From contig JACWAJ010000002.1 of the NCBI GenBank assembly GCA_014874355.1, forward strand, positions 1-34,117: a DNA stretch of 34,117 nt, given 5' to 3'. Below the pieces are notes generated by a model, which worked only from the letters and a program-made list of their open reading frames with translations, had not been told where the DNA came from and did not search any database. Of the stretch, positions 6,460-33,288 are shown piece by piece. This DNA is from a bacterium. GTDB taxonomy: Bacteria > Chloroflexota > Dormibacteria > Aeolococcales > Aeolococcaceae. The position numbers and the translations under genes are program-made. The stretch's first letter is position 1; each line of letters begins with the position of its first letter.

Positions 6460-6534
6460 GCCGACGTAGCTCAGTGGTAGAGCTACCGCCTTGTAAGCGG
6501 TAGGTCGGGAGTTCGACTCTCCCCGTCGGCTCCA
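6460..6534 (+). tRNA. tRNA-Thr (anticodon TGT)
   Basis: The acceptor GCCGACG pairs with CGTCGGC, followed by discriminator U and an encoded CCA. The D-arm is GCTCAGTGGTAGAGC, the anticodon stem ACCGC/GCGGT holds the loop CTTGTAA (anticodon TGT), and the T-arm is GGGAGTTCGACTCTCCC. It ends four bases from the convergent rlmB stop. Confidence 0.96.
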
Positions 6535-9212: not shown

Positions 9213-9892
9213 GGCTCCACGCGGACCTCTTCCCGAGCGAGAGCCCGCAGTATCACCAGGTCTCCGGGCCAAGTGACCTTGAATCCGAGTGGATCGCCGT
9301 CAACAATGACCACTTTGCCACCGCAGTGTTCGACAAGGCCGCAGTCGTCCTCGGCATGAAAATCGTCGTCAAACGCTCGGTCGTGGGCGATGCGTAGCAC
9401 TTTGGTGATGAACGCCTGAGGTGTCTGGACGGCAACCAGTGTGGTGCGATCGAGGGTCGCAACGACCCGGTTGCCGTCAATGCGCTTGATGGTGTCGATG
9501 CACTCCAGCGCGGCTGTTGCCGCACCGCTTGCCGTTGCCGCTGCGACGACAGCGGGAAATACCCGGGGCGGACACAGTGGCCTGGCGGCGTCGTGAACAC
9601 ACGTCACCTCCGTGTCGGCGCAGCGCTCCAGTCCGGCACGGACCGAATCCTGCCGAGTGCTGCCGCCTCCCACAATTTCGAGATTGGATATTCCCAGTTC
9701 GATTGCGAGTTCGCGTATATGCGACCGGCGTTCCCTGGACGCCGCGACGACGATGGGCGTGAAGATGTCGCACCTGGCGACACTCCGCAGCGTCCAGTAG
9801 AGCAGGGGCTTGCCTGCGACGTCGACGAAGAGTTTGTCCTCACCAAATCGCGTGCTGCTTCCCGCTGCAGCAAGGATGAGCGCGGTGTTCAG
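9209..9892 (-). CDS. ispD: 2-C-methyl-D-erythritol 4-phosphate cytidylyltransferase with apparent CTG start
   Basis: The protein (about 227 residues) transfers CMP to methylerythritol phosphate in the MEP pathway. The CTP-binding loop is intact near the start: NTALILAAAGSSTRFG, then EDKLFVDVAGKPLL. Downstream are GGGSTRQDSVRAGL, VHDAARPL, QTPQAF and AEDDCGLVE, all typical. No ATG, GTG or TTG exists in frame between the upstream in-frame TGA and this loop. The only sensible initiator is CTG at 9890-9892, which overlaps the upstream gene's TGA as CTGA, exactly where an ATGA coupling signal would be. A GTG much further in (9671-9673) would delete the nucleotide-binding loop. The gene is followed by ispF with an ATGA overlap. 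Confidence 0.88.
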   Translation of the reverse strand: MNTALILAAAGSSTRFGEDKLFVDVAGKPLLYWTLRSVARCDIFTPIVVAASRERRSHIRELAIELGISNLEIVGGGSTRQDSVRAGLERCADTEVTCVHDAARPLCPPRVFPAVVAAATASGAATAALECIDTIKRIDGNRVVATLDRTTLVAVQTPQAFITKVLRIAHDRAFDDDFHAEDDCGLVEHCGGKVVIVDGDPLGFKVTWPGDLVILRALAREEVRVEP

Positions 9893-11049
9893 CGGTCGCC
9901 TGCCTGTGGGGCTCGCGTTGGACCGCTGTGTGACCGCGTTTCTCCGGTGATCTCGGCGAAGATCATCCGTCCCGCAGCCGTCTGGAGGACCGATGAGACG
10001 GTTGCGGTGACGGTCTTGCCGATGCGGTTGTGTCCGCCTTCGACAACCACCATTGTGCCGTCTCCGAGATAGCCGACCCCCTGGTTGGGTTCCCGACCTT
10101 CCTTGTCGATGGCAATCTCGATCACCTCACCTCTGGCCGCAAGGGGCTTGAGTGTGTTGGCCAGCTCATTGAGGTTGAGCACGCGCACCCCCTCTATTTG
10201 CGTCAGACGGTTGAGGTTGTAGTCCTGGGTCATCAACGCCGCATTGCGCAGGCGTGCCAGTTTGACAAGACGCGCATCCACGTCGGGGGTTTCGGGGAAG
10301 TCGATCGGCAGGATCTCGCATACGACTTCGTCGCCTCGTTTCAACGCGTCCACGACATCTAGCCCGTGGCGGCCGCGAGAGCGCCGGACGGGGTCGGCGG
10401 AGTCGGCGACGCGCTGGAGTTCCTCCAAGACGAAGCTGGGGATGATCAGTCGTCCCTGGATGAAACCCGTCTTGACCACATCCACGATGCGGCCGTCGAT
10501 GAGAACCGACGTGTCTATGACAATCGGTGCTCCATCCTGAGGCTTGGGTTTGTCTCCAAATCCGGTTTCACTGCTGAACTCGCTTTGGCGCGGTTCCAAA
10601 AACAGGTTGAGTACGTTCCCACGGCGCAGTCCGAGGTGCACGCCGACAGGGGTAAGTACGATCGCCAGGGAGACGGAGATGATGAAGCCGATCCCAAAGG
10701 GCAGCGCACCGAGGAGAACCGCCACCAGGGCTGCGATCACCAGGGCTAAGGACAGCCCCAAACCCGCTCCGACGATCTGGCCCGGAGGGACGGTTTCGAC
10801 GAACCGGATGATCCATAGAAAGGCGTCGATAGACACTCGCGGCGCGGCAAGCGCAAGGAATGCGGCACCCCCAGCTGCAATTAGAACTACGGTGGCGCGA
10901 CGCTGCACGGGGTCGGGGCTGAAGAATTGCGGGGCGTTCGTGAGCACAAACTCCCCATACATGACCCCGCCCAGCAGTCCCAGGCACGCTCCAATGATTC
11001 GGGCGATTGATCGTGTTCGGTGCACGCGGGGGATCAGTAACTTGGACAT
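9889..11049 (-). CDS. Membrane-anchored PIN/TRAM-domain protein (YacL type)
   Basis: A protein of 386 residues. Four hydrophobic segments occupy about residues 15-165 (for example GACLGLLGGVMYGEF and IVGAGLGLSLALVIAALVAVL). A PIN nuclease-like domain follows at about 190-310, with acidic residues in VIDTSVLIDGRIVDV, PSFVLEEL and MTQDYNLNRL. A C-terminal TRAM domain, a likely RNA-binding beta barrel, covers about 320-375 (GEVIEI...GVGYLGDGTMVVVEGGHNRIGK). This is the conserved neighbour of ispD in actinobacteria and firmicutes (YacL). Nuclease activity is inferred from the fold. It is the first gene of the run leading to rlmB, and its TGA overlaps the ispD CTG. Its own promoter should lie in 11050-11285, which holds the quasi-palindrome. 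Confidence 0.9.
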   Translation of the reverse strand: MSKLLIPRVHRTRSIARIIGACLGLLGGVMYGEFVLTNAPQFFSPDPVQRRATVVLIAAGGAAFLALAAPRVSIDAFLWIIRFVETVPPGQIVGAGLGLSLALVIAALVAVLLGALPFGIGFIISVSLAIVLTPVGVHLGLRRGNVLNLFLEPRQSEFSSETGFGDKPKPQDGAPIVIDTSVLIDGRIVDVVKTGFIQGRLIIPSFVLEELQRVADSADPVRRSRGRHGLDVVDALKRGDEVVCEILPIDFPETPDVDARLVKLARLRNAALMTQDYNLNRLTQIEGVRVLNLNELANTLKPLAARGEVIEIAIDKEGREPNQGVGYLGDGTMVVVEGGHNRIGKTVTATVSSVLQTAAGRMIFAEITGETRSHSGPTRAPQAGDR

Positions 11050-11097
11050 CGGTTCGATTGAACCACAGTGACTGCCTGCAAGGAGCCTGTCTTAAGT

Positions 11098-11242
11098 AAT
11101 GCGCCGCTGATGCGCCGCACTGGCCGCCGAGGTCAAGGAGGCGCCCGAGGATCGCAGCCCGTGTACTTGAAGTACTCGGGCGAGAACCGGAGAAGCCGAC
11201 GCAAAGATCGGCGAGTCGGGGTAGATGCAGCGGCGGCGCATT
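11098..11242. repeat. 145-base intergenic quasi-palindromic element
   Basis: The outer arms are AATGCGCCGCTG (11098-11109) and CAGCGGCGGCGCATT (11228-11242), inverted with a three-base insertion. The left arm contains a second copy, ATGCGCCGC, at 11110-11118. The exact middle holds the perfect inverted repeat GTACTTGAAGTAC (11163-11175), flanked by CCCG and CGGG. An alternative 8-bp stem pairs CGCCCGAG (11142-11149) with CTCGGGCG (11175-11182). The symmetry centres agree within one base (11170 and 11169). The element fills most of the gap between the HisA-like gene and the PIN/TRAM gene. It has no recognisable coding content. It could be a non-autonomous mobile palindrome or a structured RNA. 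Confidence 0.5.
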
Positions 11243-11285
11243 GCTGGGACGGGCTCCAAGGTGGCGTGCGGGGCAGTTTCTGTGG

Positions 11286-12023
11286 TCAGGCGGGTGGCGC
11301 TGTCAATTCGCGGCCGTGGAAAATCTTGAGTGCTTCGCCAATGTCAAGTGATAGCTGGCCGTCGGCAAGACTGAGGACTACCGCAGCGGCGCCGGCGGCT
11401 GCGGCTTGTGCCAAGTTGGCAAGACTCTGGGCACCCCCAAAGGCGAGCAGTGGACCGGGGTAGGCAACGATGCAATCGCGCAGTGATTCCAGTTCGGCAC
11501 CGACAAAGCGAGTGTCATCTTGCAGGCTGGTGCGAAGTACTCCGGCCGCCGGCCAGGTCGACCAGCGGCGAAGGTGGATCGTGGCGTCGCCGGCGTCCCT
11601 GGTCCACCCCGGCGAGTGCGCCACACCACCCATGACATCGAGCCCGAGGATGATGCGGCCGGGGAATGCTCGGCAGACCTCCCCGGCAATGTCAGGGCGG
11701 TAGACGGCGATCGTGCCGAGGACCGCTGTCGTGGCTCCGGATTCGAGCCAAAACTCGGCCGCGGTGCGGCTGCGGACGCCGCCGCCGGCGTCCACCGCCA
11801 CATCAGCGTCGCGCATCACGTCGATTGCTGCGCGTATCGCCTTGCGACTACGTGGATCGTCGACGCCGCGGGCGGCATCGCCATTGATGAAATGGATGCG
11901 CTCAGCGCCGGCCTCGATGAGCTGCAGGGCGCAGTCCTTCGGGTCGGTGGGGTAGACACTGCGGAGTTTGGGTGCGAGCAGGCACTTGCCCGCGTTGACC
12001 TGGATGGCAGGTATGACGATCAT
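11286..12023 (-). CDS. HisA-like (beta/alpha)8-barrel protein with altered active site
   Basis: A protein of 245 residues aligned along its length with HisA/PriA, the isomerase that opens the ProFAR ring in histidine synthesis. The start MIVIPAIQVNAGKC matches the family opening, but the catalytic Asp of PAIDL is Gln (position 8). The first phosphate loop GGGVRS and the second catalytic Asp (LDVMGGVAHSPGW) are kept. The TD-x(3)-DGT motif reads RTSLQDDT, the inner HVVDL strand reads HFINGD, and the second phosphate motif GRA reads LSLADG. It is not in a his operon here. It may be a repurposed or inactive paralogue; less likely it is the organism's only HisA. A TACACT -10 box eight bases before the ATG suggests leaderless translation. 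Confidence 0.75.
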   Translation of the reverse strand: MIVIPAIQVNAGKCLLAPKLRSVYPTDPKDCALQLIEAGAERIHFINGDAARGVDDPRSRKAIRAAIDVMRDADVAVDAGGGVRSRTAAEFWLESGATTAVLGTIAVYRPDIAGEVCRAFPGRIILGLDVMGGVAHSPGWTRDAGDATIHLRRWSTWPAAGVLRTSLQDDTRFVGAELESLRDCIVAYPGPLLAFGGAQSLANLAQAAAAGAAAVVLSLADGQLSLDIGEALKIFHGRELTAPPA

Positions 12024-32128: not shown

Positions 32129-32206
32129 TGGGGTGGCCAGAGGGATTTGAACCCTCGACCTCCAGGGCCACAACCTGGCACTCTAACCAGCTGAGCTATG
32201 GCCACC
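32129..32206 (-). tRNA. tRNA-His (anticodon GTG)
   Basis: The acceptor GTGGCCA pairs with TGGCCAC; an extra 5' G (position -1) faces discriminator C, the identity mark of tRNA-His. The anticodon stem CCAGG/CCTGG holds the loop TTGTGGC (anticodon GTG), the T-arm is GAGGGTTCAAATCCCTC, and CCA is encoded. It is convergent with nuoN and downstream of the SDR gene on the same strand. Confidence 0.95.
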
Positions 32207-33212: not shown

Positions 33213-33288
33213 GCCCCTTTAGCTCAGCGGATAGAGCACCCGCCTTCTAAGCGGTTGGTCGTAGGTTCGATTCCTACAAGGGGCGCCA
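33213..33288 (+). tRNA. tRNA-Arg (anticodon TCT)
   Basis: The acceptor GCCCCTT pairs with AAGGGGC, followed by discriminator G and encoded CCA. The D-arm is GCTCAGCGGATAGAGC, the anticodon stem CCGC/GCGG holds the loop CTTCTAA (anticodon TCT), and the T-arm is GTAGGTTCGATTCCTAC. A T5 run follows two bases after the CCA. Confidence 0.96.

Follow-up and report, generated by a model that had tools for sequence, protein, structure and literature searches.

The question raised by this locus is whether a palindrome lying between two genes is a mobile repeat or a structured regulatory RNA. An initial annotation, made from the letters alone, had described a 145-base quasi-palindrome with a central hairpin at positions 11098-11242 of a 34,117-nucleotide stretch of bacterial DNA (the whole of which we call the window), and had proposed either a MITE/REP-like element or a structured regulatory RNA, at a place where the promoter of the PIN-isp-cysS-rlmB operon should be. 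As that annotation had it, the element is intergenic. It occupies the gap between a HisA-like ORF upstream (11286-12023, minus strand) and a PIN-TRAM protein ORF downstream (9889-11049, minus strand), the latter being the start of an ispD-ispF-cysS cluster. The HisA-like ORF scores 98 bits with Pfam His_biosynth, far under every NCBIfam HisA cut-off, so it might encode a HisA that has diverged or is otherwise unusual. The window also carries four tRNA genes recognized by Rfam (131-202, 6460-6531, 32132-32205 and 33213-33285).

All described components of the palindrome were recovered, namely the outer arms (11095-11113 and 11227-11245, 84% complementary), the central inverted repeat (11157-11168 and 11170-11181), the tandem copy of ATGCGCCGC in the left arm (at 11099 and 11110) and the alternative stem CGCCCGAG/CTCGGGCG (11142-11149 and 11175-11182). 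For the plus strand of 11098-11242 the folding energy is -75.6 kcal/mol, compared with -57.4 +/- 4.0 for shuffled sequences (z -4.5, with 0 of 200 shuffles as good), and the minus strand gives z -3.9. The two mutually exclusive stems that had been proposed are both present in the sequence, but only the inner hairpin belongs to the conserved structure.

The palindrome is real, but its extent had been drawn too narrowly, since alignment with other copies, together with boundary comparison and direct repeats, extends the element to 11083-11256 (174 bp, plus strand), with ends GAGCCTGTC...GACGGGCTC. When folded as DNA, this 174-bp unit gives z -5.5 on the plus strand and -3.7 on the minus strand, and on neither strand was any of 200 shuffles as good. 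The element is flanked by a 4-bp direct repeat, CAAG, at 11079-11082 and 11257-11260, which is presumably a target duplication. Its left terminal inverted repeat, or outer arm (11083-11107, plus strand), resembles IS1182-family ends, CAGCCTGTCTCAGTAA, with changes, and the right one (11232-11256, plus strand) was delimited by arm pairing and alignment with copies; relative to the shared IS-like end, the ends of the window copy carry a few changes. Between them lies a conserved, covarying core (11109-11233, plus strand), which scores 130.8 bits with covariance model R1 and 105.1 bits with R2, scores that are not independent in that the window sequence is among the building sequences of both models. 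The apical hairpin of the core (11157-11181, plus strand) was found by inverted repeat search, folding and RNAalifold.

The initial annotation had regarded a single-copy sequence with no compensatory changes in its stems as the contrary outcome. Searches of the whole genome and of relatives clearly returned a multi-copy element instead, and covariance analysis just as clearly returned compensatory changes (described below). In its own genome (1.45 Mb, 76 contigs), a DNA search with a limit of E = 10 yielded 29 matches. Of these, 20 (window included) reach E<1e-15, and contig ends account for 11 of the 20, so that copies of the repeat help explain the breaks in this assembly. Covariance-model searches gave at least 34 matches with R1 and at least 32 with R2 at E up to 0.01, some clipped by contig ends; these counts may be too low, because the models scored 110 (R1) and 150 (R2) first-look candidates. 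The element is thus one of about 30 copies in its own genome. Core lengths vary by single bases among copies, so a reading frame is not kept and the element has no coding capacity.

We compared 21 own-genome copies with both ends. All are 172-184 bp long, and their ends fall into about seven types: CAGCCTGTC-like, TGCACCGTC, GAACGTGTTT, GGGCTCGT-like, GAGCCTATCC, AGCCTGGATCC and GAGCCTGCTGC. Exact direct repeats of 2-4 bp flank eight of the copies (CAAG, CTAG twice, TTA twice, TAA twice and TA once), and are absent in the other 13. The uniform length combined with changing ends would be easier to reconcile with ends that diverged in a shared architecture than with ends that were exchanged freely.

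One of these end types has a partner in the same genome. A search for the sequence CTAGCAGCCTGTCTCAGTAA, allowing up to three mismatches, found 20 sites in the own genome, 13 of them exact, compared with none for a reversed control. Between two of these sites, C32:1-20 and C32:1468-1487, lies a 422-aa ORF encoding an IS1182-family transposase (NF033551, 365 bits against a cut-off of 270). The left end of this IS (C32:1-1487) is identical over 20 bases, and the right end has three mismatches. The own genome has three PF01609 loci in all, and the other two do not carry any of the other end types; no IS matching the remaining end types was found in this genome, leaving one of about seven types with a partner. 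At a second own-genome transposase locus (L271, G000:C60) we observed CTAG-containing 20-bp inverted ends (1085-1104 and 2756-2775) that are 95% complementary.

The window copy can be read as a MITE because of its copy number, its IS-like inverted ends and its direct repeats. It is short, multi-copy and non-coding, its ends match an autonomous IS in the genome, and target-site duplications are seen as CAAG in the window copy and CTAG in two others. In addition, an insertion in genome G022 is absent at the matching site in G031 and G011 (all genus g12), where the flanks join at CCTTAAC, with TTA duplicated; this empty site belongs to a g12 copy whose ends differ from those of the window copy, the window's own genus having a single genome among the relatives. 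That the window element is a 174-bp non-autonomous transposon (MITE) is therefore well supported, and the MITE part of the earlier proposal stands.

A transposon of this kind would not by itself lead one to expect what we found in the core, as MITEs usually are deletion products of one IS that lack a conserved fold. RNAalifold predicted 30 pairs from 15 sequences, with double changes in 15 of the pairs, and 25 pairs from 44 sequences, with double changes in 24. The 44 sequences (alignment A4) are hand-picked copies, an earlier step having removed 6 of 56 collected copies as near-duplicates. Among 89 matches, both sides change in 22 of 25 pairs; 93.8% of 2061 cells pair, compared with 72.3% after shuffling and 25-40% with slid partners, and double-change cells number 402, compared with 117 in shuffled data. 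These 89 matches lie in 78 of the 80 loci that a pattern scan of named genomes had picked out in other genomes, and their rows were aligned to the model and are biased towards it. Since the scan pattern preset some loop letters in these rows, conservation of loops is better judged on A4, in which the unpaired positions G29, A40, G70, A91 and C92 are invariant. Alignments of copies also show GA/GA internal loops recurring between the core stems.

The covariation also has a direction. There are 79 G.T pairs and 11 A.C pairs among the 44 sequences, and 90 G.T and 34 A.C among the 89 (one fixed G.T pair excluded). This asymmetry identifies the folding strand as the plus strand as given. A core of about 100 nt is kept by compensatory changes and read on one strand, and according to the covariation this core would be a structured single strand, either RNA or ssDNA. 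In the own genome, the core is found inside about seven differently sequenced terminal repeats. The persistence of a covarying core across genera, families and classes despite wholly different ends suggests that the fold itself is under selection. It is a structured element with no match in the RNA-family library and no description in the literature searched: Rfam returned only tRNAs in a scan of the window and, in six loci at E up to 5, nothing at the element, and our literature search was of limited depth.

The core extends well beyond the genome in which it was noticed. A first DNA search of 61 genomes (own included) gave matches in nine, and outside the own genome these mostly covered the middle of the element, not its ends; in other genera, the arms are unrelated in sequence and yet mutually complementary. 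At the family level 20 of 32 genomes are positive, and in a sample of the phylum 28 of 251 genomes are positive, belonging to families f1, f3, f4, f21 and f32. A pattern scan of a named collection (84,980 species) gave at least 120 stretches. Among the 80 listed, 77 have record titles that name Chloroflexi, Chloroflexota, Ca. Dormi(i)bacter(ae)ota, Anaerolinea or one of two candidate genera, Amunia and Changshengia, and the remaining three are two contigs of a 'Deltaproteobacteria' MAG and one of Nocardia. The covariance model, applied to all 80 listed loci and to none of the further 40 stretches, confirms 78; it rejects the Nocardia locus (L197) and, of the two Deltaproteobacteria contigs, L173. 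As far as searched, the core is restricted to Chloroflexota, including Ca. Dormiibacterota, and it is kept there in many soil bacteria that are uncultured. Two loci of a named Ca. Dormiibacterota MAG (L189 and L196) match L101 and L119 of G008, a genome from the same family as that of the window, and this assigns the window to the Ca. Dormiibacterota group. Viral contigs gave no matches to the core pattern. Phage and plasmid records gave short partial matches, covering at most 23% of the query among the matches listed, which we took as chance.

Taken as a whole, these observations are probably best explained by a MITE with IS1182-like ends, moved in trans, that carries a selected core folding on one strand. 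An IS1182-type transposase would bind the ends of the element and move it in trans, duplicating about 4 bp (CTAG or CAAG). The core strand, as RNA or ssDNA, would form a long hairpin in which tandem G.A mismatches recur, and may be recognized in this form by some factor. Such recognition would account for the persistence of the core even as the ends were altered to match different transposases; elsewhere among the lineages the terminal ends would have been lost or never been present. Several points call for caution. An exact direct repeat is missing in 13 of 21 copies, and an IS was matched to one end type. Fitting alignment A6 to the model favours the model, and several loop letters in A6 were fixed by the scan pattern. 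Finally, copies in relatives that lack terminal repeats require either another route of moving or purely vertical inheritance.

These copies in relatives motivate the strongest alternative, in which the real unit would be the core, as a structured single-strand element in its own right (an RNA like a bacterial SINE, or an attC-like ssDNA hairpin) spread or maintained by machinery of its own, and the IS ends would be later vehicles. Terminal repeats are lacking, by a score threshold, in 68 of 112 distinct copies (117 minus identical cores), and copies without them occupy orthologous gaps in related genera. The secY-adk gap is filled in 4 of 4 aligned loci, in the same orientation and alignably, with closing stems that differ and yet remain complementary (adk being identified from its start in the alignment alone). 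The strand asymmetry of G.T over A.C pairs likewise counts in favour of such a unit, as do tandem arrays in genome G058, which with 83 matches has the most of any single genome. In these arrays (L272, at G058:C232 437-1187, L273 and L274), a 128-bp unit that includes the core recurs up to 4.9 times, and a 50-bp unit of the right arm 2.6 times. The arrays look as if the left and right halves of one hairpin had been amplified separately. The 3' end of the element is also frequently found right against the stop codon of a gene that runs towards it. (At the locus of L122, several species of g12 keep an element directly behind one and the same stop codon. Compared with L122, L320 and L321 show that in some g12 species a short GC-rich hairpin has been inserted into the element, and this hairpin may represent another small repeat family.)

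Other features speak against an independent core. No dedicated recombinase is known, Y1 transposases being the sole such family sought and none being found over the cut-off in 12 host genomes. Orientation flips within the same gap: one of five aligned loci is flipped in the rpsJ-rplC gap, the rplQ-truA gap has two of its four aligned loci in each orientation, and at least one of five is flipped in the atpA-atpG gap. (Profile searches bear out the identity of the neighbours S10, L3, L17, SecY, AtpA, AtpG, S13, S11, S4 and TruA.) Within one ribosomal-protein operon, L120 has two copies of opposite orientation, at 1517-1642 after the S13 gene and at 2703-2826 after the S4 gene, and L086 has a copy after the S4 gene in an orientation other than that in L120. 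Furthermore, the orientation of 20 copies of two genomes does not follow gene strand (11 opposite, 9 same), and there is no signal of GC skew or replication strand (12 with, 8 against). Among 117 copies with flanks, 103 are intergenic; convergent gene pairs flank 26 and divergent pairs 9, and in co-directional gaps 45 are antisense and 15 sense, an antisense preference to be read with caution, as only copies with flanks were chosen, some loci represent one place that appears in both a named and an unnamed record, the gene finder is a GC3 heuristic and the 20 copies of two genomes show no bias of that size. On balance, we regard an independent core with its own machinery as rather unlikely. A broader formulation is somewhat more plausible, though still tentative: a class of mobile elements across Chloroflexota in which a single-strand-folding core of about 100 nt with tandem G.A mismatches would be the unit of selection. 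Such elements would sit without terminal repeats in gaps of ribosomal-protein, secY and ATP-synthase operons, expand in tandem and repeatedly change their transposon ends, in a SINE-like manner, as RNA or ssDNA bound by a putative host or mobile factor.

Complementarity could also arise without selection, if hairpin-templated repair (quasi-palindrome correction) acted on an otherwise dead repeat, and the near-perfect complementarity of arms that differ greatly in sequence is what such repair would leave. However, it would erase mismatches too, whereas five unpaired positions are invariant in the 44 sequences and G.T is tolerated above A.C, so we consider this explanation improbable.

The regulatory RNA reading fares worse still. 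A leader, attenuator or terminator acting in cis on the PIN-isp-cysS-rlmB operon would suit a gap directly upstream of the PIN-TRAM ORF and the strong structure on both strands. However, other copies adjoin many unrelated genes in both orientations, no position and orientation fixed at orthologous genes was found across copies, the covarying strand is antisense to the PIN-isp-cysS operon, and Rfam gave no match. Because position and orientation vary, a regulatory role specific to this operon is disfavoured, and we consider the regulatory RNA of the initial annotation very improbable. Least probable of all is the strict REP part of the original proposal, in which a Y1 (HUH) transposase would mobilize a population of the REPIN-RAYT kind: its palindromic, intergenic and abundant copies (up to 83 matches in one genome) and an asymmetry that recognition of a single strand would account for are outweighed by ends that match a DDE-type IS, by the direct repeats and by the lack of any Y1 transposase (PF01797) over the cut-off in 12 host genomes, where one fragmentary match of 25 positions was seen.

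Of known systems, IS1182/IS5-type MITEs are like the window element in being short, non-coding, intergenic and multi-copy, with IS-like inverted ends and direct repeats. Unlike them, it has a covarying core common to copies with unrelated ends in several families of the phylum, and this fold departs from the usual view of bacterial MITEs as passive deletion products of single ISs. Correia, ERIC, RUP and BOX repeats are likewise structured intergenic bacterial repeats of 100-200 bp; to our knowledge, their sequences are unrelated to the element and none keeps one core in many end types. In integron attC sites, as here, one strand folds, structure is kept while sequence varies, and the site often lies right after a stop codon. 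Unlike attC sites, the element has copies inside ribosomal-protein operons, no attC boxes were noticed (short of a systematic scan), and no cassettes were seen between the tandem copies of the G058 arrays. REP/REPIN sequences with RAYT (PMC3733652) share the abundance of intergenic palindromes that are possibly read as single strands, and differ in being 20-40 bp long, compared with a 174-bp element with DDE-type ends and no Y1 transposase in 12 host genomes. The alignments and coordinates assembled here would permit annotation of this repeat family, and the persistence of its fold makes directly testable the idea of SINE-like bacterial elements in which structure, as RNA or ssDNA, drives spread or host benefit.
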